A stretch of DNA of 34,086 nucleotides from NCBI RefSeq assembly GCF_003730195.1, contig NZ_QWGG01000019.1:1-34086 (forward strand), given 5' to 3'. Of the stretch, positions 7,073 to 25,526 are shown piece after piece. Origin of the DNA: Halosimplex salinum (lineage in GTDB: Archaea; Halobacteriota; Halobacteria; Halobacteriales; Haloarculaceae). Below the pieces are notes generated by a model. It saw nothing but the letters and a program-made list of their open reading frames with translations. It searched no databases and was not told where the DNA came from. The position numbers were made by a program, and so were the translations under genes. Positions within the stretch are counted from its first letter, which is position 1. Each line of letters opens with the position of its first letter.

Positions 7073-9253
7073 CTACCGCTCACCCTCGTACAGATCGACC
7101 GCTCGTTGCGTCAGCGTGTACCTGTTCGAGGTCCGCCGCCACCCGATCGGCGCGTAGTCGTGGTCGCCCTTTTCGACGTTCGCGGCCTCGATTTCCTGCG
7201 CGACCTCGTCGAACAGGTTCATCCGCTCCTCCTCGTCGTCCCCCGCGAAGAGCCGGTCACGAATAGCCTCCATGACCTCCTCCGAATCCAGGTCCGTCGT
7301 GTCGATATCCAGCAGGGCGGCGACGAACTGCCGGACCTCCGCATCGTCCCCAACGTGAGCTAGGAGGCGCTCCATCTCCTCGTCAATGATGGGACCGAGG
7401 TCCTCGTCGTAAAGCCGTTCTTCCGTCCGCTCGTGGAAGATGAATGACCGGCCGCCCTGTGGCTCGTGCTGCTCGACCAGTCCGACTTCGTTCACCAGGT
7501 TGTCGATGTGGTTCCGTGTGGCCGTCGGCACGCTCTCAAGGATCTGCCGCGTCCGAACCTCCGGGTCGGTCCCCGGCAACGCGTCCTGCCCATATAGGTA
7601 GGCCACGACGTCAGCCTGTCCCTCGGCGCTCCGGTTCGTGGGATACTCCTCGTTGATGAAGTTGATGACGGCCGGCTTCCCTGCTGTCCCCCACTTTTCC
7701 TCGTACCGCTCAACCGCGTCTGGGTCGCCACAGACCTCGCAGTCAGGATGCGGGTTCGTGAACCGGTGCATCCCTTCGACCGGTACCCCCAGCATGTTGT
7801 GGGTGAACCGGTTATTGACCACCGCCTCCGGGAAGTGCCGCTGCTTGATAACCTCGCCCGCGAGCAGCACTCCCGCTGTGACTGGGAGGAACGGAACTGG
7901 TACCTCCATATCCGCCCCGCCGAGATCGATGTGACCGCAGTGTAGTCGGAACCAGTCGCTGAACCGTTCCCCTGGCTCCGGCACCGTGATATCGTCGTCG
8001 CCGTCGACGTACGCCGTGACTTGGTCCACCTGCTCTTGGGTGAACGCCGCATTGTCCGTGTTCATCTCGACGAGTGTCTCCGTTTCGAGTCCAATCTGAT
8101 CCGACAACACGGACATCTCCCGCGTCACTCCGTCCTGCCGACCCTGGTGCTTGCACGCCAGGCACTGCCCCTCGCCGAACACCACGCGCAGCACAACGTA
8201 GTCGCCCTGCTGATTCGTCGCCGCATCCAGGACCGTCTCCGGGAAATCCCACTGGATCTGCTTCCGCGCCCGCACCGTGTCCACCGCCGACACCACTAGC
8301 TCCAACGCGTCCGCATCGACTCGGTCAGAAAACTGGATGTACGGCTCGGGATGGGCCTGTACCGAGAACGTCAACGCCGGGTGTGCGTCAACCACGGCTC
8401 GCTTCCCGACCTTAGCCTTCATCGACCCCACATCCCGCCGGTACGCCCAGATATACCTGTTCAGGTTCGACGCCGACACCTCGTCGCTGTCCACCAGCCG
8501 GATGGTCCCCCTTATCGCATCCAACGCGCTCAACGTCTGTACGAGGGCACCACCGCCGGCACCCACGCCGACCACGTTCAGATTGTGGAGGTTTACGACT
8601 CCCGGCAGCTCGGGGTTCGCTGGATCGGCCCGATCGACGGTGTAGTCGTACGTCGAGAACGTTACTGACCCGACCGGGGTCACCCGACCTCGGACGTTCT
8701 CTGCGCCGACAGTCTCGCGGAGCATCGCCTTGAACACTTCGGCCACACCCATGCAGGCAGCCGTATAACTGCCGACTGGGTTCACTTGACCGCTGAACGG
8801 CGTCGCCGTCTCGTCCGTCGTGGCGTGGACAAGCCACCCGTTCGACCCGACCGACACCGTCGCGTCCTCCGCCCCCGCGCCCAGGTGAAGCGTGGCATCG
8901 GCCCCGTCAGGCTCCACTGTCTGCCGGACTGTGACCGGCGAGTCGATGAGCGCAGCGAGGTCCGCGACCGCCTCGCCGACCGTGCCTGCGTCGACGCCCG
9001 GCACGTGGACCCTGCGGTCCGCATCACGCGGGAGTGCCACTGCCACTTCGTCGACGATGGGATGCAGACGCGCAAGCAGGTTGACCGTCGTGAACAGGGC
9101 GTGCTGGCAATTCTCGTTCGCTGGCTCCGCGACGCTGACCGTCACGTGCCGGTCCGCGACCGCGGCGACGGCCCCGTCCGGGTCGCCGTCCATGAGGCAC
9201 GTGACCGCGGTCTCCGTCCGATCCGAGTTCCAGGATGGTGTCTCGCTAGCCAT
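7073..9253 (-). CDS. E1-like ThiF/MoeB-family adenylating enzyme
   Basis: A 726-residue activating enzyme that should adenylate the C-terminus of the ubiquitin-like protein encoded upstream. The Rossmann ATP-binding loop is GVGAGGGALVQTL (G229, G231, G233), followed by VDSDEVSASNLNRY (D255, D257, N263, N265, R266), K279 and the acidic VSAVD (D325), the classic ThiF/MoeB/E1 set. Two CxxC pairs (C364/C367 and C505/C508) match the structural zinc site of the family. The transfer cysteine is not certain; C439 in RLHCGHIDL is a candidate. Residues 1-215 form an extra N-terminal region and about 560-726 contain winged-helix-like segments, so it is longer than MoeB. It starts 3 bases after the JAB gene ends. 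Confidence 0.85.
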   Translation of the reverse strand: MASETPSWNSDRTETAVTCLMDGDPDGAVAAVADRHVTVSVAEPANENCQHALFTTVNLLARLHPIVDEVAVALPRDADRRVHVPGVDAGTVGEAVADLAALIDSPVTVRQTVEPDGADATLHLGAGAEDATVSVGSNGWLVHATTDETATPFSGQVNPVGSYTAACMGVAEVFKAMLRETVGAENVRGRVTPVGSVTFSTYDYTVDRADPANPELPGVVNLHNLNVVGVGAGGGALVQTLSALDAIRGTIRLVDSDEVSASNLNRYIWAYRRDVGSMKAKVGKRAVVDAHPALTFSVQAHPEPYIQFSDRVDADALELVVSAVDTVRARKQIQWDFPETVLDAATNQQGDYVVLRVVFGEGQCLACKHQGRQDGVTREMSVLSDQIGLETETLVEMNTDNAAFTQEQVDQVTAYVDGDDDITVPEPGERFSDWFRLHCGHIDLGGADMEVPVPFLPVTAGVLLAGEVIKQRHFPEAVVNNRFTHNMLGVPVEGMHRFTNPHPDCEVCGDPDAVERYEEKWGTAGKPAVINFINEEYPTNRSAEGQADVVAYLYGQDALPGTDPEVRTRQILESVPTATRNHIDNLVNEVGLVEQHEPQGGRSFIFHERTEERLYDEDLGPIIDEEMERLLAHVGDDAEVRQFVAALLDIDTTDLDSEEVMEAIRDRLFAGDDEEERMNLFDEVAQEIEAANVEKGDHDYAPIGWRRTSNRYTLTQRAVDLYEGER

Positions 9254-14152: not shown

Positions 14153-17100
14153 TTACTCCTGCCCCTTCAAGTACATCCCCGCGACGACGTGCGGAGGCTC
14201 TTCCTGTTCTTCCGCCCATTCCTGTCGCTCTTCGTATTTTTCTTGCAGATTGTACCGAGAGATGATCTCCCGGACAGCCGCCACCAGTTCTTCACCAGTG
14301 ACTTCCTCGTTACGAAGATCTCTGAACTCATCGAGGATCTGATCTGCCGACACGGTCTCAACGATATCCTGGAACTGTGCCAGCGTCCGCTGTTGATCAG
14401 TGTTTTCTACAGACGACGCGACCTCCCCGAGTTCGTCAACCACATAATCACGGTCGATACTCGCACCTTGCCGAGCCTCTCGCTGGAACTGACGACGCTT
14501 ACCCATGTCATCGCCGAACTCCGTCCGCGCCACCTGTACAGCCCGTTCGTAGCGACTGTCGAACGTCTCTGCGTCAACGGAGGCGACTGGCTCATCAACA
14601 GGACACGTGATAGTTTCGACGATGGTATCCTTCTCCTGTGAGGCTAGGTCTTGTCCCCCTTCGCTCGGGAACGTTACGAGGTACGGGGTCGTGTAGTCTC
14701 CTTGTCGATAGACAATGACGACGCCATCGTACTCTCGGTTCCACTCCATTGCGCTCCGAATCCCGTCACGATCATCCAACCAACTGAGGAGGTCCGGATG
14801 CTCTTGCTTTAGGTCCTGAAGGCTACTCGCAGGACCGATAAGATCGTCGCTTCCGATGATCTCGTTCACGTCGTCTTCGACCTTCTCAATGTCCTCTTCG
14901 GCGTAGATATCCTCCATGTACGACCGGTTCACGTTATCCTCGGGACTTAGGATCTCCCCGTCTTCACCGAGAACACTACTGATCTCTTGCACCCGAGACT
15001 CAACGCGGTCAACGATGCCGAGTTCCTCTTCGAGTTCCGTTTCCGGTAGGAAGTTGAGCGCGTAGATGTCGTCGTGGCCGCTCCCGAGTCGGTCAACCCG
15101 ACCGATTCGCTGAATTAGACGGAGAGGATTCCAGTGCAGGTCGTAGTTGATGACTAAATTCGCATCCTGAAGATTGACCCCTTCCCCCGCCACGTCGGTT
15201 GCAAAGAGGACATCAATCTCGTCACTCGGGTCGATTTCATCCCGCGCATCATTCGCCTCTGGAGCGAAACGCTGGATGATCTTCTCCACATTCGAGGTAT
15301 CACTCGTAGCGCTCGCAAACCGAACATCATCATCGAGCAACCCTCGATCTTGGAACTGTTCGAACGCAGCTTCCAGATACTTCACTGTGTCAGTAAACTG
15401 TGTGAATACGATGAGCTTCTCAGCTCGATCACCACGCTGAAGAATCTCATGTGACCCAATTCGGAGATTCCCGAGAAGCTGCCTGAGCTGTTCAGCCTTG
15501 TCATCCATTGCGTAGTCGTCCTGGATGTCCTGGTGGAACGGTTCCAACGTGGCTTGCAGATCAGCAAGGAGTTGGATATCAGTCTCAAGGTCGTGCTTCA
15601 ATTCGTCAAGATGGAAGGCCTCCGTCTGGTACGCCGCGTACTCACCCTCCTCGACCATCTCGTCGATCTCATCCAGGATAGTGTCGATCTGCTCCCCACT
15701 ATTGATGAGCTCGGAGACATCGCTCCCGACAGCGACAGTTCCTTCGTCAAGGAGATTCCGAAACATCCGGTAACTCCGAAGCATCCGATTGAGAGACGTG
15801 TAAAAGGCATGAACACTGCTTTCCAACCTTTTCAGCAAGTTGGACTTCATCAACCCACGAATGCTCCTCCCCATTGAGGAAAGGTTCTGATACGGGTCTT
15901 GATTCGCGTATCCCGTCTTAAGGTACTCTTCTTGACCCAGGGAATACCGAGCGAACGTGAGGTCCTCTAACGTCTCTACAATCGCATCGTACAGTGAATC
16001 ATTGACGCCGTCCGCTGTCGAGTATGTCTCGTGCAGGTTGTAATCAACCGTCTGTAGGTGCCGATCCGGGAGGTACCGACGTTCCCCACCCATCTGAAGG
16101 TACACTTGACCATCCTCATCCTCCTTGCCGTATTGGTCGATGATGTCTTGGCGAGTCCGCCGCACCATCACGTGGCTCAGAAGGTTCGAGAGGTCAGTCT
16201 CATCGTTCTCAGCCATTTGCGTGAAGTCATAGAGGTTCGGCGGCGTAATCGGAATTTGCGTGAGATCCTCGATGTGGAACAGCTTGATCTGATTGTACAC
16301 GTCCCAAGCGCTCTTCGTGTACGGCGTCGCAGTCAGGAGGATCGTCTGATTGACCGTCGGCAGGAATGACTGTAGATTATCGTACCGGTGCGTATCGTCA
16401 TTCCGGAAGTGGTGGGCCTCGTCAACGAGACACACTGTCGTGTCGTCGTGCTCTTCCAGGAGAGTTTCGTGGAAATCCTCCTTCGAAACCATCCCCAGGC
16501 TGATCACCTCCGCGTTGAAGTTGTACCGCTTGTTGACCATCCGCTCCCACATCGGCTGGAGATGTTTCGGTGAGATGATCAGCATCTTTCCCTTGTTCCC
16601 ACGGAGCCGATTCCGCGCATGGAAATGTTCGAGTAGACCGAGGCCGACGAACGTCTTCCCCATCCCGACGACGTCGGAAACCAGAACCCCGTCGTACTTG
16701 TTGGCGATTCTAATGCCGCGATTCACCGCCCACTGCTGGAACTCGTAGAGGTCCTCGTACACGTCGAACGACTGGAGGTAGTCCTCAGCAGTCTCCAACG
16801 TCTCCTTGTAGAGTTCGTAGAGAATCTTCGTATACACCAAGTACGGTGCCGGAAGACCAGTACCACTGCTGACCCCTCGGAGTGTTGCCGTCGTGTCATC
16901 TGGCAATGAGTCGCCCGGAAGTGCCGGTGGCTCGTCTTCCGTCGATACGTGGCCTGGATTGTTCGAGACCCAAGAGTCCTCGAACGCGTCCAGAAGATCG
17001 GCGTCGAATTCGACGGCGTCGTCCCACAGGTCATCGAACCAATCCTTGAGTTGGGTGACCTTCTCGTTGTAGACCGGAGCGTTGAGCTCCGTATTGCTGT

Positions 17101-17662
17101 GTAGACCACTGAGACTGAGATTTGACGAGCCGACGACGCCGACATCCTTTGGGGTGAAAATGTCTCCTTCGTCTTTCTCGAAGAGGTACGCCTTTGCGTG
17201 GAACCGTTCTTGAAGATACAACTTAGGCTGGATACGTCCCTGTTCCAGCCAGTCGATCAGCTTCGTGAAGAACGCCTGGTTTTCCGCAGTGGGATTCTCG
17301 TAGAGCAGCTGGTTTGAGTAGTTATTCGCAGTTTCGGCACGGATCTCTGTCCGCTCACTCCATTTGACGTTTTGCGACTGTTTGAATTTCGTCCCGGTGA
17401 GATTCAGATTCTGATGGGCCTCGATAAGCTCGTCAAGTCCCTGCTGATCAGGGTTCCCTAACAGAATCTGGAGCGTTCCTCCATTGTCCAGAAATTCATC
17501 TAACTCTGGACGGAGACGTTTGAGGCCACTCATGTAGAGATACCCGACAGCAATACGAACGCGGTCAACGTTTGGACTCTCCAGCCCTGTTTTCAGGACT
17601 TCATCTAACCGGTCATATTTCCGGTTATCGATGATACCAATCTCAGCGGAATCGTCACTCAT
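14153..17662 (-). CDS. PLD-domain plus SNF2-type helicase
   Basis: A 1169-residue protein. Residues 1-215 are a phospholipase D-like domain with FHAKAYLFE (H155, K157) and GVVGSSNLSLSGL, an HKD-type half site that in such helicases acts in DNA binding or cleavage. The SF2 motor follows: Walker A VVGMGKT (G333-T337), DEAH box VCLVDEAHHF (414-417), LLTATP (444-447) and, near residue 857, QRIGRVDRLGS (motif VI). Long helical linkers of about 600-720 and a C-terminal region complete it. It starts 6 bases after the methyltransferase stop, so the two are one unit. Helicase-methylase pairs of this type occur in DISARM and other restriction-like defence systems; I infer the same role. Confidence 0.8.
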   Translation of the reverse strand: MSDDSAEIGIIDNRKYDRLDEVLKTGLESPNVDRVRIAVGYLYMSGLKRLRPELDEFLDNGGTLQILLGNPDQQGLDELIEAHQNLNLTGTKFKQSQNVKWSERTEIRAETANNYSNQLLYENPTAENQAFFTKLIDWLEQGRIQPKLYLQERFHAKAYLFEKDEGDIFTPKDVGVVGSSNLSLSGLHSNTELNAPVYNEKVTQLKDWFDDLWDDAVEFDADLLDAFEDSWVSNNPGHVSTEDEPPALPGDSLPDDTTATLRGVSSGTGLPAPYLVYTKILYELYKETLETAEDYLQSFDVYEDLYEFQQWAVNRGIRIANKYDGVLVSDVVGMGKTFVGLGLLEHFHARNRLRGNKGKMLIISPKHLQPMWERMVNKRYNFNAEVISLGMVSKEDFHETLLEEHDDTTVCLVDEAHHFRNDDTHRYDNLQSFLPTVNQTILLTATPYTKSAWDVYNQIKLFHIEDLTQIPITPPNLYDFTQMAENDETDLSNLLSHVMVRRTRQDIIDQYGKEDEDGQVYLQMGGERRYLPDRHLQTVDYNLHETYSTADGVNDSLYDAIVETLEDLTFARYSLGQEEYLKTGYANQDPYQNLSSMGRSIRGLMKSNLLKRLESSVHAFYTSLNRMLRSYRMFRNLLDEGTVAVGSDVSELINSGEQIDTILDEIDEMVEEGEYAAYQTEAFHLDELKHDLETDIQLLADLQATLEPFHQDIQDDYAMDDKAEQLRQLLGNLRIGSHEILQRGDRAEKLIVFTQFTDTVKYLEAAFEQFQDRGLLDDDVRFASATSDTSNVEKIIQRFAPEANDARDEIDPSDEIDVLFATDVAGEGVNLQDANLVINYDLHWNPLRLIQRIGRVDRLGSGHDDIYALNFLPETELEEELGIVDRVESRVQEISSVLGEDGEILSPEDNVNRSYMEDIYAEEDIEKVEDDVNEIIGSDDLIGPASSLQDLKQEHPDLLSWLDDRDGIRSAMEWNREYDGVVIVYRQGDYTTPYLVTFPSEGGQDLASQEKDTIVETITCPVDEPVASVDAETFDSRYERAVQVARTEFGDDMGKRRQFQREARQGASIDRDYVVDELGEVASSVENTDQQRTLAQFQDIVETVSADQILDEFRDLRNEEVTGEELVAAVREIISRYNLQEKYEERQEWAEEQEEPPHVVAGMYLKGQE

Positions 17663-17668
17663 GAGAGT

Positions 17669-20600
17669 TCACCGTTGCCTGTCCCGCTCTCGAACTTGTT
17701 TCGTTAGGCGTTCCACGCCGTCATAGACTTCCTCACGTTCGTCTTCCGATAGGCCAAGAATGTCGAACATCACGTCATCCAACTTTTGCCGAGCAGGATC
17801 GTCGAACTCCTCAAACACCGCTTCTGAGTCTCGCTCTTTCATTTCGTCGAAGGCATCGCGGAGACGACTCTCGTTGTCCTCACTGATCTCACTGGGATCG
17901 GGGATCAGGTATTTTGCCACCTCATACACCTTCGTATCGACAGACCGGCCACTACTTTCCCGCCCTGAGATCACCTTCACCATTGCGTAGTAAGTCGAAT
18001 TAAGGATTGCCGCAAGAAGCTCTGAATCTGCCGTTGACTCCGGATCTGAAACAATCCCATACATCCGATTATCCAGATAGTGAGGTTGTTCTGAATAGTA
18101 GGCTACATGTTCCGTGTAGTGAGTCATCTGCCAGAATACCCTCGCCTGTTCAACCTCGTCCTCAAGTGAATACCAGGGGTTACGACTACTAAGGGTCGAA
18201 CTGCTGGGGTATCCTTCCTCTTCCCCGTAATTGATGTAGTCCTGTAGTGCTGAATCTGAAGGGTTCTCCGGGATGAGAACCATTCTGGTATCCAAATCGT
18301 CTTGCTTGATGAGTGGCCGGTTTAGAGGCCGAGGACTCTTTACTGTCGGATGGAGGTACTCATCAGGGATTCCAAATTCCTGAACAAGTTCATCACTAGG
18401 ATAGAAGAACGAGTTCTTTCCGGTAGTAACCCCGCGGAAGACTTCAGCAACCGAATCCAAAGTAACGAATTGGTCCTGGTTCTGGTTTAGAATCTCGAAG
18501 TAGATGTCGGGAGCTTGCAGGAACTGGCTCCATTTCGCGTCACCCGAGTATGATCCGGCTGGTCGTGCAGCCGCCCCACTATCATTGTACGATTCGATAC
18601 CTGCTTGTAGCCCCTCAACACCGGTCTGTTCTGAGAACACGCGCTCAGTGCCATCCCCATTTGCCTCTTCAACTGCACCACCACCTAGTCGCCAAAGGGA
18701 CGCCTCAGGGAGCGTAACTCGCCGTCCGCTTTCCACAGGGGTGTATCTGAGGGTCTCACCACGGTAGTCAATAGTTGAAGTGTCCGTGTCTCCATTAGCG
18801 AAAACCTGCTCCATTACGTCGGTTCGGACGATGTTTTCGTAATAATCGTTGAACGTCACGAAGCCGGCCTCTCCGCTGAGAGTTTCGCTAGCAGTCCGTT
18901 CGGCCATCGTAATGACGGTATTCACGTCAGCTTCGTCGAAAATTGGTCCAGCTCGGTTGTCAAGCAGACACTTGAGGTTTCCAAACCTGAGCAAGCCTTC
19001 TTGAAGTTTTTGACCATAGTTCACGTCCAGCCAAGAATTGGACGTAATATAGGTGAGAGTACCACCGTTACGCAATAAATCGAGACCCTTAAAGAAGAAG
19101 TAGACGTAGATGTCACTTCGTTTGTAGGGATTCAACTCAAAAGTATCCTGTACGTAGGCACTGAGGTCGTTCTTGTACTGCTTTTTGAGATCCTTGAATT
19201 TGGTGTCGTCCATCGCATCCAACCGCTCTGGATGAATCCCTTGGTCGATGATATCTTCCTGGCGAACGTATGGAGGATTCCCAATGACGACGTCAAACCC
19301 GCCTTCAACCATCACGTCTGAGAAGTCGATATCCCACATGAAGAATCCAGCAGCGCCAGCTTCATCGATTGCGTCACGTACGTTCTTGAGTTCTTCAATA
19401 CGGTCCTCGGTATCCTCGTCAGTCTGATCGTCCATTGTATCCCCAGTGAGAGTTCCCTGAACTCGATCACTGGAGAGGTTGTCAATCAGGCCGTCAATAT
19501 GTGTACGGAGTAACTCAACCTGCTTTTCTTCAATCTCTTCCGACCGATCTGCCTCACCTTCGAAGTGCTCTCTTTTCAGCTCCTTCAGTTCGGTGAGTAA
19601 ACCACCCGTATCTCCATCATATGTGCGAGTCAGGGTGTCCAACGACACAAACTCTCCGTCCAATTTCTGAATGAGGCTGTCGCCGACTTTGAGTTTGAAA
19701 GAGAAATTCGGGAGAACAGGACGCTGGTCGGGGATTTGCTCTTCCCCTTCAACGAGTGATAGCCAAAGCCGGAATTCTGCTACACGGACGGCCCAATCCT
19801 TGACATCGACACCATACAGGTTTTCGTTGATTATCTGCTCTTTGAGGTGGTAATCCGGGGTCGTGTCCAGTTTTCGGTACAGTTCGGTGAGAACCTGTTT
19901 CATTCCCACTAGGAATGCACCGCTACCACAAGCGGGGTCAACGATACGGAGCTCATGAAGAATCTCCTCTAGCTGCTCTGTTTCACCCGTATCTTCCGTG
20001 TCCCAATCCTGCGGCTCGCTGAAGATGAACTCGACAATCCGCTGTTTCCCTTTAGCATCGAGTCCGTTGGCGTGGTCGCAGAACTGCTCGTACAGAGACA
20101 TTCGGCACATTAGGTCAACCTCAACACGCGGTGTGTAGAAGATACCAGCCTCACCGCGTTCCTGCTCGGCAATCAAGGACTCGTAGATCTTCCCGAGCAT
20201 TGCCGGATCGACGGCGACGTCGATGTCGTAGGGGCTCTCCTCGGTGACCGTGAAGTTGTACTGTTCGAGGAACTCTTCGATCACCGACTTAAGCGCTGAG
20301 TCAGACAGGAACGTGTCACGTCCGTCCTCCTCTGTCGGCTGGAAGAGCCCACCGTTCATATACGGGAGTCCAGCAATGACGGACTCGATCTCGGAAGGGA
20401 GATCAGCATCGATCTCTCCACCTTCTGGGCTATTCATACCGTCGAAGAACAGTGCCGAGAGCCACTTCTCGTGGAACACGTCCTCTTCGTCGGACAGCTC
20501 GTACTGCTGGTGGAACCAGCGGACGAAGTCCTTTCGCTCACCGATCCAGCCCTTCTTCTGGAGGTAGTAGAAGAACATCAACCGGTTGAGCGTGGTGTGC

Positions 20601-21283
20601 GCATACCGGTCGGCGTCCTCAATCTCCAGGCCTTTCCGGCGGAGTTCCTTACTGAGCGTATCAAAGGCGCTCTTGTAGTTTTCGTAGAAATCCTCGGTAA
20701 CGGGCTTGACTCGGAACGCCTCGTCGATACGTTCTGCCAGCCGCCCCTTGCTGGCATCCATACTTGACAGCGCGTTAGCGACGGTGCGGTGGGTCTCGCC
20801 TTCACCGAGCGTGTACCTGCGCAGCACTGGGCGACCAGTCGTGATGTCGTCGGTGCCTTCCTCGTAGGGAGTGACGAGGTGCCAGACGTCCTCGTCTGGC
20901 GCGTGGAATACAGTCAGGAAGGAACCATCGATGGCCCAGCCACTCGTTCTGTCCGACCGAGTGAGGCTCTGGATAGCGTTCCGCTCGGCTGTCCGGGTCA
21001 GCTTCTCCAACTCAACGTAGATTACGCGGAAGTTCCCCGACTCGGCGAAGAGCCGAGCGACGTTCGCCCGGGCCGTGTTCGGCCACTCGTGAACAGGAAT
21101 ATCTTGCCACGTAGCGTCCCCGAGGGGAGACGTCGTCTCATTGAAGTTAAGGACCTGAACGAAGAGATCCTGGAAGAACTGAGTCGCTGCCTCTCCGGTA
21201 GAGCGGTAATCACGCTCGAATTCATCCAGAGAGAGATCCTCATCAAGTCGGCGTCGAATTTCCTGGGTTTGATCGTCAGTCAT
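17669..21283 (-). CDS. Eco57I-like adenine-specific DNA methyltransferase (large)
   Basis: I choose the ATG at 21283 (1204 aa); an upstream in-frame GTG at 21352 is possible. Motif I is IVDPACGSGAFLVG at about residue 450 (S-adenosylmethionine binding) and motif IV is DVVIGNPPYVRQE at about 668, which together define N6-adenine methylases of the Eco57I/PglX/DrmMI kind. The 400-residue N-terminal part contains FRVIYVELEKLTRTAERNAI, an E-x-x-K region like the nuclease-related N-terminal domains of such enzymes, but I cannot confirm catalytic residues. The C-terminal 350 residues resemble target recognition domains. It is followed after 6 bases by the helicase. Modification of host DNA with helicase-dependent attack on unmodified DNA is the likely scheme. 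Confidence 0.8.
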   Translation of the reverse strand: MTDDQTQEIRRRLDEDLSLDEFERDYRSTGEAATQFFQDLFVQVLNFNETTSPLGDATWQDIPVHEWPNTARANVARLFAESGNFRVIYVELEKLTRTAERNAIQSLTRSDRTSGWAIDGSFLTVFHAPDEDVWHLVTPYEEGTDDITTGRPVLRRYTLGEGETHRTVANALSSMDASKGRLAERIDEAFRVKPVTEDFYENYKSAFDTLSKELRRKGLEIEDADRYAHTTLNRLMFFYYLQKKGWIGERKDFVRWFHQQYELSDEEDVFHEKWLSALFFDGMNSPEGGEIDADLPSEIESVIAGLPYMNGGLFQPTEEDGRDTFLSDSALKSVIEEFLEQYNFTVTEESPYDIDVAVDPAMLGKIYESLIAEQERGEAGIFYTPRVEVDLMCRMSLYEQFCDHANGLDAKGKQRIVEFIFSEPQDWDTEDTGETEQLEEILHELRIVDPACGSGAFLVGMKQVLTELYRKLDTTPDYHLKEQIINENLYGVDVKDWAVRVAEFRLWLSLVEGEEQIPDQRPVLPNFSFKLKVGDSLIQKLDGEFVSLDTLTRTYDGDTGGLLTELKELKREHFEGEADRSEEIEEKQVELLRTHIDGLIDNLSSDRVQGTLTGDTMDDQTDEDTEDRIEELKNVRDAIDEAGAAGFFMWDIDFSDVMVEGGFDVVIGNPPYVRQEDIIDQGIHPERLDAMDDTKFKDLKKQYKNDLSAYVQDTFELNPYKRSDIYVYFFFKGLDLLRNGGTLTYITSNSWLDVNYGQKLQEGLLRFGNLKCLLDNRAGPIFDEADVNTVITMAERTASETLSGEAGFVTFNDYYENIVRTDVMEQVFANGDTDTSTIDYRGETLRYTPVESGRRVTLPEASLWRLGGGAVEEANGDGTERVFSEQTGVEGLQAGIESYNDSGAAARPAGSYSGDAKWSQFLQAPDIYFEILNQNQDQFVTLDSVAEVFRGVTTGKNSFFYPSDELVQEFGIPDEYLHPTVKSPRPLNRPLIKQDDLDTRMVLIPENPSDSALQDYINYGEEEGYPSSSTLSSRNPWYSLEDEVEQARVFWQMTHYTEHVAYYSEQPHYLDNRMYGIVSDPESTADSELLAAILNSTYYAMVKVISGRESSGRSVDTKVYEVAKYLIPDPSEISEDNESRLRDAFDEMKERDSEAVFEEFDDPARQKLDDVMFDILGLSEDEREEVYDGVERLTKQVRERDRQR

Positions 21284-21343
21284 GGATATCGAATTTGATG
21301 GAAACGTTTGATTGGACGACGTAAATGGACATACAGCACCTTG

Positions 21344-21356
21344 CTCTTGCACCCAA
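21344..21356 (-). promoter_or_regulatory. 13-base motif upstream of the methyltransferase gene
   Basis: TTGGGTGCAAGAG on the minus strand, repeated exactly at 22282-22294 in the promoter of the winged-helix gene. Both copies face the same way and stand upstream of minus-strand genes of one module, so it may be a shared operator or promoter element. Confidence 0.35.
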
Positions 21357-21420: not shown

Positions 21421-21960
21421 TTAGGTGAACTGCATCAAATCGTCCTTCAAATCAGCGAAGATTTTCTCTGCCGCCTCAATATTCCGACAGCCGGTGATCA
21501 CAATTCGACCAGTAGCGAAGAGAAGTACGACCCCATCCTCTTCAGGAGGGCGGTAAATGAGACCCGGAAATTGCTCGGGTTCGTACTCCGTCTGTTCGAG
21601 CCCTAATCCGATAGCGAGTGCATTTAGATTTAGAGTCCGGTCAAGGTCTTCCGTACAGACATAGTTTTGAACAGAGAACCACTCATCAGTCGCGTTTTCG
21701 ATGGCTCCGATATTGGATAGGAAGGTCAGAAAACGCTCTCGGAGGTGAAAGAGTTCTTCCTTCGAGGTTGGCCCGGTGATAATGTACTTCCCAGTTCTGT
21801 ATAGGGTGATTAGCGGTGTGTCTTCCTCGAATCGAAGATACATCCCTGGGTACTTCCCGGGATCGTATCTTGCTTGGGGCTGACCGATTTCTTCAGAAAG
21901 TGTCTCAAGATCAAGTTCAGCATTGAGTGAGCCAGATCCAACCATGTTTACGACTTCCAC
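21421..21960 (-). CDS. Divergent TATA-binding protein (TBP) paralogue
   Basis: A 179-residue protein with the two direct repeats of TBP. Repeat 2 is close to canonical (SVQNYVCTEDLDRTLNLNAL, EYEPEQFPGLIYR, GVVLLFATGRIVITG) and repeat 1 is diverged (VVNMVGSGSLNAELDLETL, KYPGMYLRF, LITLYRTGKYIITG). The conserved minor-groove asparagines are N5 and N99. The phenylalanines that intercalate into TATA DNA are kept in repeat 2 (F131, F148) but both are tyrosine in repeat 1 (Y37, Y54). GTG start. It lies 39 bases after a winged-helix gene and upstream of the methylase-helicase pair, so it may direct transcription of this module. Haloarchaea often carry several TBPs, some on plasmids. Confidence 0.85.
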   Translation of the reverse strand: MEVVNMVGSGSLNAELDLETLSEEIGQPQARYDPGKYPGMYLRFEEDTPLITLYRTGKYIITGPTSKEELFHLRERFLTFLSNIGAIENATDEWFSVQNYVCTEDLDRTLNLNALAIGLGLEQTEYEPEQFPGLIYRPPEEDGVVLLFATGRIVITGCRNIEAAEKIFADLKDDLMQFT

Positions 21961-21999: not shown

Positions 22000-22254
22000 T
22001 CATTCATTTTCGGAGGCACTCAATTCCCACAACTTAGCGTTCCCAACTTTTCGAGAAGTGAGTCTCTCCTCTGCATCCATTTCAGTAAGTTTCGCATGAG
22101 CAGTCCTATACGCACAACCGACTTCGTCGGCTACTTCTTGAGTACCAGCTGAGCCCCCTAGTGATTCTAAGGCAGATAGAAAGTCCTCTGGAGTGTACCG
22201 CTCAGTGTATTTCCCCGTCTGCTCATCTCGGTCCTTGGGCATTACTTCGTCCAT
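22000..22254 (-). CDS. Small winged-helix transcriptional regulator
   Basis: I place the start at the ATG at 22254 (84 aa), because a TTTAAT box lies 22-27 bases upstream and the frame upstream of it crosses the promoter. Residues 20-80 are a winged helix: TPEDFLSALESLGGSAGTQE, VADEVGCAYRTAHAKLTEM, then the wing RLTSRKVGNAKLWEL. The twin palindromes 37-91 bases upstream are plausible binding sites for it. The TBP gene follows after 39 bases, suggesting a regulator-TBP operon. Confidence 0.7.
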   Translation of the reverse strand: MDEVMPKDRDEQTGKYTERYTPEDFLSALESLGGSAGTQEVADEVGCAYRTAHAKLTEMDAEERLTSRKVGNAKLWELSASENE

Positions 22255-22275
22255 TGCACCTACCTGTAGAAGGGG

Positions 22276-22281
22276 TTTAAT
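22276..22281 (-). promoter_or_regulatory. TATA box of the winged-helix/TBP operon
   Basis: Minus-strand ATTAAA, 22-27 bases before the ATG at 22254. The 13-base motif TTGGGTGCAAGAG (22282-22294) abuts it on the upstream side, where TFB contacts or a regulator would sit. Confidence 0.45.
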
Positions 22282-22290
22282 CTCTTGCAC

Positions 22291-22345
22291 CCAATGCATC
22301 CTAATGCAATGGCAGCACTTTTACCAATGCAGGCTAATGCATTGG
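22291..22345. repeat. Twin 22-bp inverted repeats, candidate operators
   Basis: Two copies share the layout CCAATGCA, six-base spacer ending CTAA, then TGCATTGG. The copy at 22324-22345 has perfect 8-base arms (spacer GGCTAA). The copy at 22291-22312 has one mismatch in the right arm (TGCAATGG; spacer TCCTAA). Their centres are 33 bases apart, about three helical turns, so both would face the same side of the DNA. They lie between divergent operons and next to the TATA box of the winged-helix gene. Confidence 0.6.
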
Positions 22346-22440: not shown

Positions 22441-23040
22441 ATGGAAGACTCAACTCCAGACCGACAAGAAGGCACGGATTGGAAGATTATTGAAGGAATA
22501 ATTCAGCTAGAAAAAATCGCGCTCGGGGAAGGGGCCGCGGTTTGTGAAGGCTGCGGTAATAAACTGCGGGAAGGCACACCGGTTGTCGTGTTCGCCTTCC
22601 GGCCGGTTGAGCAACTGGCTTTCGAGATCGGGCACGTGAAATGTACTGAGTGTCGGCATGAGCCGACGGAGTATTTCACGCTCGGTGTGCGTGAGCTTGT
22701 CTTGGATGGCCGGATCGGTACGTGTACTGATCCTGCGACTCAGTCGTCATGGCCTGTCTTGCTGGCCCCGCAGCCGCGTGCGGTGAGTCCGGCGGATGCG
22801 ACGACGGTACAGCCGCTGCCGGGCGTGGCGTGGTTCCGCCGTCCGATTGCGCGTAGCGACACGTTCGTTACTGCGGATTGCGAATCGACACGCAAACCCT
22901 GGCAGCGGCCGGTGGTGCGGGCTGACGGCTTGGCCCGGGATGGTGCGTCTGAACCGGATGCTGGTTCGATGAGTGATGACGTGACTGAAAGGACTGCCCC
23001 ACATGCTGCTGATGGTGGTTGTCAGGGAGGTGCTCGGTGA
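22441..23040 (+). CDS. CxxC zinc-site protein, first gene of the RAMP operon
   Basis: A 199-residue protein. After an acidic N-terminus there is AVCEGCGNKLREGTPVVVFA and, 30 residues later, IGHVKCTECRH: two CxxC pairs (C35/C38, C68/C71) forming a likely treble-clef or zinc-ribbon domain. A second region (90-150) is less structured, and the last 40 residues are low complexity. In type IV CRISPR systems the gene next to the Cas7-like csf2 is csf1, which also has a CxxC...CxxC zinc site, so it could be a csf1 counterpart. Similar zinc-finger proteins occur widely in haloarchaea, so this is only an inference. The next gene begins 2 bases after its stop. Confidence 0.55.
   Translation: MEDSTPDRQEGTDWKIIEGIIQLEKIALGEGAAVCEGCGNKLREGTPVVVFAFRPVEQLAFEIGHVKCTECRHEPTEYFTLGVRELVLDGRIGTCTDPATQSSWPVLLAPQPRAVSPADATTVQPLPGVAWFRRPIARSDTFVTADCESTRKPWQRPVVRADGLARDGASEPDAGSMSDDVTERTAPHAADGGCQGGAR
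23026..23032 (+). promoter_or_regulatory. Shine-Dalgarno site of the RAMP gene
   Basis: GGAGGTG, 10 bases before the ATG at 23043. It selects that start over an earlier in-frame GTG at 23019 and supports coupled translation with the preceding gene. Confidence 0.6.
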
Positions 23041-23042
23041 CG

Positions 23043-24008
23043 ATGCATGGGGAGCAGGACACCCGGGCCTTCGATGCTTCGCACCTCGACATCGATTTCG
23101 ACCTTCCGCGTCCTGTCGATGAGATGGCGTTCCCGGACCTGTATGTCGGGCTGGATATCGACCTGCTGGCACCAGGCGATGGGATCGTTACGGATCGACA
23201 CCATGCGTCGGCGGATCGGTACGAGGCGGATGATCCGCAGAATCAGATTGCGGGCCAGATTTCGCCGTTCACGTTGTCGAGCTGGCTGCGGCATGGCTGT
23301 GAGCGGGTGGTGCAGGCGGCGGGCGCGACGGTCTGCCATCCGGGCGAGGCGAACGCGGATTACATGCTCGAAGACGTGTACGACCGCGATCTTGATGCCG
23401 GGTATCACGAGAAAGGCAGTTGTGTTGATGGCGATGGCGACGCGGGCTGTGTTGTCCACGACTTGTTCGGTGGGTTCGGTGATCGGGCGGGCCGCGTGAT
23501 TCGCCGGCCGATTCGGTTCTCGCCGATTCGACGGCAGGTGGATGTGACGAAGGGTGAGGCGGAAGCTCACTACCGGCAACTCAACACGCAGGTGCGGTCG
23601 CGGAATGCTGAGGATGAGGGGCAACCGCTTCGGCAGGCGACGCGAGATGTAGTCGGCAATCTCGTCGGAACTTGGCGACTCACGCTCCGCGAACTGAAGC
23701 CCGAATACGTGGGGCTGCTCGTTGAGGCGATCGATTACTTGGATGCGCATAGCGATGAATATGCGATGCAGCTTGGCGGTGCGCGGAACTTCGGTGCCGG
23801 GATTGTCGATGCTGAGGTGGTGAACCCGTTGTACTCGGACGCTGAGCTGCGGCGCGTGTATAATCGCGCGCAGGACGCGACGAGCGGGATGGACACGAAA
23901 GACGATGTTTGGCGTGACCAGTGTCGTGAGGCGTTCGTGCTGGCGTTGCAGGCGCGGACGGCTGCGCGTGATGGTGATGTGCCGGTGCCTGGAGGTGAGT
24001 CGGCGTGA
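23043..24008 (+). CDS. RAMP-superfamily, Cas7-like protein (Csf2/Csm3-like)
   Basis: A 321-residue protein with the hallmarks of Cas7-type RAMP proteins. The segment QISPFTLSSWLRHGCERVV (about 72-90) corresponds to the I-x-G-S-S-L-R-G-x-L-R motif. CVVHDLFGGFGDRAGRVI (136-153) matches the C...LFG....GR element. Near the C-terminus comes MQLGGARNFGAGIVDAEVV (242-260), the glycine-rich loop. Such subunits form the helical backbone that holds crRNA in type III and IV complexes. No repeat-spacer array, Cas1, Cas2 or Cas10 is visible nearby. Type IV systems often lack adaptation genes, so a type IV-like or unnamed RAMP system is possible. Translation is coupled to both neighbours. Confidence 0.6.
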   Translation: MHGEQDTRAFDASHLDIDFDLPRPVDEMAFPDLYVGLDIDLLAPGDGIVTDRHHASADRYEADDPQNQIAGQISPFTLSSWLRHGCERVVQAAGATVCHPGEANADYMLEDVYDRDLDAGYHEKGSCVDGDGDAGCVVHDLFGGFGDRAGRVIRRPIRFSPIRRQVDVTKGEAEAHYRQLNTQVRSRNAEDEGQPLRQATRDVVGNLVGTWRLTLRELKPEYVGLLVEAIDYLDAHSDEYAMQLGGARNFGAGIVDAEVVNPLYSDAELRRVYNRAQDATSGMDTKDDVWRDQCREAFVLALQARTAARDGDVPVPGGESA

Positions 24009-24331
24009 CGGGGTCTGACGGGGCTGACGATGGTGGTGTCGATGACGATGTGGATGCGGATGAGGATCTTGATGAGCTTCACCCGGTGTCGTCGTCGCTG
24101 CGGACGGCTCAAGAGCAGGAGGGTGGGACAGATCGAGTAGTGGAGGCTGGAGATGGGCAGGCGGAGTCGAAGGGGTCGGGTGGTGATGGCTCGGGGTTGG
24201 ATGAATTAGCTCCAGTGTCGTCGGCGGTTCGGACGGCGCAGAGCCCATCCGATGTTGATGCTGCGGGTGATGACAGTGATGCGGGTGCGTCGGATGAGGA
24301 GAGTGGTGGCGGTTTCGGGGGTGGGAGGTGA
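24005..24331 (+). CDS. Acidic low-complexity protein with two copies of a 15-residue motif
   Basis: GTG start overlapping the RAMP stop (GTGA), with GGAGGTGA six bases before it, so translation is well supported. The 108 residues are mostly Asp, Gly, Ser and Glu and are probably disordered. Two near-identical segments stand out: LDELHPVSSSLRTAQ (22-36) and LDELAPVSSAVRTAQ (65-79). These look like linear binding motifs that tether two partner molecules on a flexible chain. The function is unknown, but the position suggests a scaffold or regulatory peptide of the RAMP complex. Confidence 0.55.
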   Translation: MTGSDGADDGGVDDDVDADEDLDELHPVSSSLRTAQEQEGGTDRVVEAGDGQAESKGSGGDGSGLDELAPVSSAVRTAQSPSDVDAAGDDSDAGASDEESGGGFGGGR

Positions 24332-24780
24332 TGCCGGTGGGCTGGGGGTGCGATGGTGGCTGGTGTGACTGTCGTAGCAGAGAGGCGGTGCTCGTGGTGG
24401 GGCACCGCTCACGCCAGGCTGTGGCTGCTCGTGTGGCAGGCTGTGGTGGACCTGCCGCTGCGAGTGGCAGTGAGAGTGACCGTGGGTGCGGTGAGCGAGG
24501 ACAGCCGTCGGGATGCGTGGTGGTGTCCCGACGTCGTTGCCCGACCGGTCACTGCGTCGGGGCGAGTGAATCTGCGTGGCCGCTTCAACGGGTGCGCGTT
24601 CGATCGGGTGCTGCGTGGCGAGTTTGGAGAACACTTGAAACGGGGTGTGTGGGGGTGCAGTGGTGTCCTGAGTGTGGTGGTTGTCACCGTGTGCGTGGTG
24701 GCACTACGTTTGCGAAGAACCTGGAGTGGAAACGGAGGGGTGTGTGGATGACTATCGTCCAGCAGGTGAGACACGTATGA
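24331..24780 (+). CDS. Cys-rich protein of uncertain reading frame
   Basis: This frame begins at the ATG overlapping the previous stop and ends with an ATGA overlap into the next gene; its C-terminus is convincing (VQWCPECGGCHRVRGGTTFA, NLEWKRRGVW), with a probable zinc site. Residues 1-100, however, are Arg/Gly/Cys-rich and unlike haloarchaeal proteins. A second frame from an ATG at 24353 has a more host-like, GC-rich third position over 24353-24640 (VVDLPLRVAVRVTVGAVSED, VTASGRVNLRGRFNGCAFDR) and then deteriorates. One explanation is a frameshift near 24640-24670, either a mutation, a sequencing error or a programmed event. I record the frame supported by both gene junctions. Confidence 0.4.
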   Translation: MPVGWGCDGGWCDCRSREAVLVVGHRSRQAVAARVAGCGGPAAASGSESDRGCGERGQPSGCVVVSRRRCPTGHCVGASESAWPLQRVRVRSGAAWRVWRTLETGCVGVQWCPECGGCHRVRGGTTFAKNLEWKRRGVWMTIVQQVRHV

Positions 24781-25526
24781 GTGGATTCGAGATCTGGGGA
24801 GATGTTGACCGGTACCGGTCTGCAGGTGAGGAGTCGGACGAGCATTTGTGGGGCAAAGTAGAATTAGACCGGCGACAGGAAGATAAACGGAAGCCGTGGT
24901 TCGAAGGTGAATACCAGTTCGAGAAGAAGGTTGCTGACCGGGTCCCGGATTGTTTCGTACGCGGTGAAGGGCTGAATCGGTGGATCGAGTTCGTTGCTGG
25001 GTCCGATCAGCCGTATCGGGCGAAGACGCGGGAAGCGTTACGCTTGGGGTTCGTGGTGCATTGGGTGTTCCATACCGATCATCGTGAGCAGATGCGTGAC
25101 GCACGTGAGGCGCTCGAACCGGAATTAGAGGGGCCGTTCCGGTTCGGTGAGTACGATCCGTTGAACGGTCTGTTAACGGTAGGTGATCCGGTAACGTTCA
25201 AGAATTATGAGTTTCGGGTGGAGTCGATGCGGGAGTTCGAGCCGCGGTCGTTCCTCGGGTATCGGCGCGGTGCGGCGCATATTGCCCGGCGAGAGAATTC
25301 GTATGATCTTGGGATGTTTGACCTGGCTGGGTGTCAACGCCGGATTTTCACCGACTACCCGCAGGGGAAGTACTTCCGCGCCGTTGCACCTGGACAAGCG
25401 TTCGACACGGCAACGTTCGGATTTCCCACGGAAGACGGGCTTGAACGCCTTGTTGACGACGAACAGGTCACGCGACTCGGACCCGTCCGACGGCGAGACG
25501 CTGAGGAGTGGACAGTGTCTCGGTAG
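24777..25526 (+). CDS. Degenerate nuclease-like (CoiA-type) protein, last gene of the RAMP operon
   Basis: A 249-residue protein starting at the ATG that overlaps the preceding stop by 4 bases, with AGGTGA seven bases upstream. FEKKVADRVPDCFVRG (about 48-63) followed by LNRWIEFVAGSDQPYRAKTR (66-85) and GFVVHWVF resembles the PD-(D/E)XK core of CoiA-like nucleases (D58, E71), but the usual lysine position holds valine, so catalysis is uncertain. The second half (from about 125) is rich in aromatic residues and includes RDAEEWTV at the end. It probably works with the RAMP protein on nucleic acid. Confidence 0.5.
   Translation: MSGFEIWGDVDRYRSAGEESDEHLWGKVELDRRQEDKRKPWFEGEYQFEKKVADRVPDCFVRGEGLNRWIEFVAGSDQPYRAKTREALRLGFVVHWVFHTDHREQMRDAREALEPELEGPFRFGEYDPLNGLLTVGDPVTFKNYEFRVESMREFEPRSFLGYRRGAAHIARRENSYDLGMFDLAGCQRRIFTDYPQGKYFRAVAPGQAFDTATFGFPTEDGLERLVDDEQVTRLGPVRRRDAEEWTVSR

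Follow-up and report, generated by a model that had tools for sequence, protein, structure and literature searches.

A reduced HRAMP locus in the haloarchaeon Halosimplex salinum, probably cut down by two internal deletions, retains a putative nuclease gene under selection

The haloarchaeal RAMP (HRAMP) system of Makarova et al. 2019, on which we follow PMC8730458 and PMC12669027, is an array-less CRISPR derivative of haloarchaea that combines diverged Cas7 and Cas5 proteins with extra nucleases, often of the HNH or PD-(D/E)XK type, and with further proteins that are uncharacterised in these accounts. The ARAMP of Asgard archaea is likewise an array-less CRISPR derivative and is distantly related to HRAMP, but most ARAMPs carry Cas1 (PMC8730458), whereas none was found for the locus described here. 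This locus lies in a stretch of 34,086 nucleotides from Halosimplex salinum, hereafter the window, and resembles HRAMP in its haloarchaeal host, its diverged Cas7 homologue, its uncharacterised proteins, the presence of a putative extra nuclease and its lack of an array, but it is devoid of the Cas5/Cas6-like RAMP, of the conserved protein D and of the exonuclease. HRAMP is a predicted RNA-guided defence working without an array, and we know of no published experiment on it. Judged by its gene content, the window locus belongs to HRAMP and is neither a type IV CRISPR-Cas locus nor an unnamed system. HRAMP itself is already known, but neither the series of reduced loci that keep the nuclease nor the HRAMP-specific repeat, both presented below, has been described to our knowledge, the HRAMP literature being known to us through reviews.

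With the Cas7-like protein of the window as query, homologues were found in 97 of 392 haloarchaeal genomes. The relatives in named genomes occupy 23 loci, all haloarchaeal, 22 plasmid records also matched, and no relative was found in the viral contigs searched. Sixty-four loci could be oriented, and their common gene order, which holds in most of those bearing gene A, is A-B-(C)-D-(E)-F-G-(H or I). Gene A (42/64 loci) encodes a CxxC protein, B the Cas7, C a variable acidic protein, D a conserved protein of about 240-300 aa with no family match, F a Cas5/Cas6-like RAMP, G a DnaQ-like exonuclease (RNase_H_2, E 4e-4), H a nuclease and I an HNH-type protein (Pfam HNH above cut-off), while the position of E is taken by a variable ORF or by nothing. 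A second HRAMP subtype consists of B-D-F; most of its loci are devoid of A, and none in this set has G. The predicted model of the F protein is usable (pLDDT 72) and indicates a RAMP-like fold, its best matches being Cas6 nucleases and Cmr3 (E about 1e-4, probability 0.95-1.0); profile searches of F, D and A against the PDB gave no meaningful match. Where the D-F interval is long, E in most cases shares NTGA overlaps with the D stop and the F start, which argues that it is translated.

The genes described in the window are all on the plus strand, from 22441 to 25526, and are preceded by a divergent regulator gene. The features are as follows.

22000-22299, minus strand: HRAMP-associated divergent winged-helix regulator of 99 aa, with a homologue likewise placed upstream in 30 other HRAMP loci
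22441-23040, plus strand: gene A, first of the operon, a 199-aa CxxC...C protein whose C35, C38 and C68 are shared by 28 relatives
23037-24008, plus strand: gene B, HRAMP Cas7-like, with motifs found in 48 relatives and sub-cut-off matches to RAMPs, Csm3 and TIGR03986
24005-24331, plus strand: gene C, acidic, carrying the repeat LDELxPVSSxxRTAQ twice; according to the junction alignment it continues in frame into the final codons of the deleted gene D
24309-24317: deletion junction 1, gene D (285-300 aa) removed, from the alignment to relatives; shared with genome G376
24328-24747, plus strand: gene E, variable Cys-rich ORF, weakly constrained, with a 3' end frame-shifted relative to its relatives
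24629-24649, plus strand: single copy of the HRAMP-specific repeat, GAACACTTGAAACGGGGTGTG, from the motif comparison across loci
24748-24780, plus strand: gene F remnant, MTIVQQVRHV followed by a stop, from the junction alignment
24760-24768: deletion junction 2 at the direct repeat CAGCAGGTG, the rest of F and all of G removed; shared with G376
24777-25526, plus strand: gene H, putative PD-(D/E)XK/CoiA-like nuclease of 249 aa, from an alignment of eight homologues, and under purifying selection

Compared with the full operons L003, L004 and L005, the window matches over A-B-C, then jumps over D to E and over F and G to H, the two deletions amounting to about 0.8 and 1.7 kb. The first removed D, which we take to be the uncharacterised conserved protein of HRAMP. 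At the second, the beginning of F, ATGACTATCGTCCAGCAGGTG, is joined to the beginning of H, CAGGTGAGACACGTATGAGTGG, within the 9-bp repeat CAGCAGGTG, so that no Cas5 homologue is left; F is present in the relatives and in a second HRAMP copy on contig C25 of the same assembly. Since only ten codons of F remain, with a stop overlapping the start of H, the window locus is a deleted derivative of an HRAMP locus and not a complete HRAMP. The Cys-rich ORF E is part of what lies between D and F in HRAMP operons, and in the window it extends into the initial codons of the deleted F. An earlier note on this DNA had described a five-gene unit coupled by overlaps, with an acidic repeat protein and a Cys-rich protein. 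Both ORFs exist and the NTGA overlaps are present (A/B at 23037-23040, B/C at 24005-24008, C/E at 24328-24331, F remnant/H at 24777-24780), but, in view of the two deletions, the unit is a remnant from which D, F and G are missing.

Gene B is open, and the Cas7 motifs that the note had seen in its 321-aa product proved to be kept, in the forms LRHGCE, LFGGF and GGARNFGAG: in an alignment of 48 relatives, W81-L82-R83-H84 with E87, L141-F142-G143-G144-F145 and G245-G-A-R-N-F-G251 are invariant or nearly so. The start is most likely the GTG at 23037, giving 323 aa, because the relatives start at an ATGA there. The profile evidence for a Cas7 identity is weak and consistent across models: Pfam RAMPs scored 16.2 bits against a cut-off of 22.1 (E 0.016), with 33/48 family members matching the same model (best E 2e-4), and Csm3 (PADLOC, 0.007) and TIGR03986 (0.024) also matched below cut-off. 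A PDB profile search gave no meaningful match. The AlphaFold2 model of the 321-aa protein, in which the ferredoxin-like RRM core of RAMP proteins was sought following the note, was too poor (mean pLDDT 46.8) to speak for or against such a core. Of its 50 best Foldseek matches, none with E <= 0.001, 47 carry CRISPR protein descriptions; most of these are Cas7 proteins or effector complexes that contain Cas7, from types III, VII, IV and I. This result is supportive only, as a low-confidence model is weak evidence. With the type III Csm3/Cmr Cas7 proteins, the window protein has colinear motifs in common (LKGKLRSLxE, C..C..LFG and a Gly-rich loop) besides the weak profile matches, but the locus is without Cas10, Csm2 and an array, and hhalign placed the motifs of gene B and Csm3 in the same order but without significance (P = 0.26). 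The type III gene set (Cas10, csm/cmr) was not found among the operon genes of the 64 loci, to which the Cas10 search was confined, and a Csm3 family search of the window's genome returned nothing. The protein encoded at 23037-24008 is considered a real Cas7-like member of HRAMP.

Both deletions recur in G376, a genome of another genus of the same family, in which a 651-bp stretch over the two junctions is colinear at 92% identity; an assembly artefact is therefore ruled out, and the alignment indicates that the deletions are old and shared. The G376 locus has lost its Cas7 too, by an in-frame A-C fusion. Other loci are reduced in other ways. In G464, an A with a broken CxxC is fused to the tail of D and followed by E and H, and G087 keeps remnants of A, C and D together with H; neither genome has a Cas7 match. 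In G434, both A and B are missing and an insertion interrupts the E repeats, and a locus of G109 (L092) lacks D and F and has a Cas7 without the Gly-rich loop. As the loci of G376, G464 and G087 fall into three clades of the H tree, the loss has occurred at least three times, which gives at least three independent reductions. As a control for nuclease retention, loci with I were compared with loci with H: intact Cas7 was absent from about 3/30 loci with the HNH gene I and from 4/12 loci with H, a tally that is suggestive and not significant. A solo degenerate Cas7-like gene in G039 (L093) adjoins an AddAB-like helicase/nuclease operon, without D or F. Downstream of H in two loci (L005:13280-14388 and L146:5643-6988), a VapBC-like pair lies by a second, truncated 3' end of H.

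Gene H starts at the ATG at 24777 and not at 24672. Its product shows a pattern recognised by eye in the alignment of eight homologues, E..D...D...IE(F/I)V..S.Q..R.K, which is that of CoiA-like PD-(D/E)XK nucleases; the K/Q usual after the E is replaced by V in all homologues, and no family profile or PDB entry matched. Between the sister remnants of the window and G376, dN/dS was 0.09 for H, 0.32 for A, 0.59 for C and 0.71 for E, with a third-position excess of H over E (Fisher p = 0.0013), so that H has remained constrained after the loss of the core, with the caveat that recombination could have moved H and that A is more diverged than C-H between the two. In the full operons the values were 0.12-0.21 for H, 0.34 for A, 0.39 for C, 0.45-0.58 for E and 0.08 for B; as E is weakly constrained there too, its value in the remnants is not specific.

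We favour, with a probability of about 0.8, the reading that two internal deletions have reduced an HRAMP operon to the present locus, that selection keeps H and that Cas7 is probably on its way to being lost, as has happened in the sister locus of G376. In an intact HRAMP, Cas7 (B), the Cas5/Cas6-like RAMP (F) and protein D would form an RNA-binding effector complex, which would bring the associated nucleases (G, H or I) to the nucleic acid of invaders. The window copy, having lost D, F and G, would be unable to build this complex by itself. H would be what selection still keeps, its translation being preserved by the in-frame fusion and the stop/start overlaps at the junctions, and the predicted nuclease may still cut nucleic acid. 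The deletion series amounts to a set of natural knock-outs, in which the Cas5-like protein, D and Cas7 were lost stepwise in at least three lineages with H under selection, and points to a nuclease able to work independently of the core derived from CRISPR.

The window Cas7 is intact, 94-95% identical to the Cas7 of the full operons L003, L004 and L005, with a dN/dS of about 0.08, and may therefore still be functional, perhaps together with the other HRAMP copy in the genome. That copy, on C25, is fuller (A, B, D, F, G and I), and its Cas7 is 71% identical to that of the window; G109 also has a D/F-less copy besides a full one. These data would fit a functional minimal HRAMP, consisting of Cas7, A and H without D, F and G or receiving D and F in trans from C25. 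We consider this unlikely, however, because the sister locus with the same deletions has lost Cas7, the D/F-less Cas7 of G109 has no Gly-rich loop, and G087 and G464 keep H without any Cas7. Moreover, the assembly (28 contigs) has an estimated contamination of 4.6%, and the window contig (C10) and C25 may therefore not be of one genome. Slightly less probable still is that everything at the locus is decaying, H included. C, E and the F remnant are indeed decaying, and elsewhere A and B have been lost beside the disrupted E repeats of G434 and the CxxC has been broken in G464, but H has a dN/dS of 0.09 between the two genomes sharing the deletions and is open in all three reduced lineages.

The single repeat copy of the window belongs to a motif close to CACTKGAAACRGGGTGTG, which occurs in 2-5 copies, mostly 33-99 nt apart, between D and F in several loci and genera (e.g. 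L017:3427-3640). An exact search of 195 genomes gave seven hits, all in the D-F interval of HRAMP operons and from four families. Apart from L070, whose copies differ in frame, the copies are all in frame with E (TLETGCV), and the third positions of the GAA and TGT codons are nearly fixed against a mixed background. The motif is a candidate element for a guide or regulatory step. It might be an operon-embedded source of guide RNAs, F cutting the transcript at the repeats and Cas7 being loaded with the pieces between them, which, if true, would explain the origin of the guides in a CRISPR derivative devoid of an array. The confinement of all seven exact hits to HRAMP, the 2-5 copies at 33-99 nt in several genera, the unusually fixed third positions and the differing frames of L070 speak for this. 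It is nevertheless quite improbable, as most HRAMP loci, including the C25 copy, have no such repeat, the sequences between copies are often near-duplicates, the distances between copies are nearly always divisible by 3, as would also be expected of a protein repeat, and the possible hairpin shows no compensating changes. An adaptive mini-array was rejected because the segments separating the repeats are in many cases tandem copies of nearly the same sequence and because no turnover of the E region is seen between relatives. An RNA hairpin of the repeat was rejected as well: the folding of single copies is weak (z about -2 at best), in the L017 variant the stem is disrupted with no compensating change, and whole regions fold no better than shuffles. 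A search of Rfam gave nothing. The motif may be a protein repeat, a regulatory site or an RNA-processing site.

Type IV CRISPR-Cas is a derived class 1 system with a Cas7, which it has in common with the window locus. A type IV-like system or a RAMP system not yet named, as the earlier note proposed from the CxxC protein preceding the Cas7-like gene and the absence of an array, is very improbable, because the neighbourhood survey of the 64 loci contradicts it, gene content and haloarchaeal spread being those of HRAMP, already named (PMC8730458, PMC12669027), and because no csf1, csf2 or csf3 match was found in Pfam, NCBIfam or PADLOC. The neighbours differ from those of type IV, and the CxxC protein exists but does not match Csf1. 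The RAMP operon without array or adaptation genes was correctly recognised: genome-wide searches yielded no Cas1, no match to the common haloarchaeal CRISPR repeat, which is not an exhaustive search for arrays, and no Cas6 with the Pfam model, a weak one recovering only 2/14 controls.

Several other genes of the window deserve mention. A PLD/SNF2 helicase and a type IIG restriction-modification protein (14153-21352, minus strand) adjoin the HRAMP remnant, and eight further HRAMP loci, the C25 copy among them, have one or both of these genes, or relatives, at their side. An extra TATA-binding protein gene (21421-21960, minus strand) lies beside the HRAMP genes, and TATA-binding protein genes are also found near HRAMP in L004, L056, L057, L071 and L080. 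Finally, a 726-aa ThiF-domain (E1-like) protein encoded at 7073-9253 on the minus strand is possibly another defence gene.
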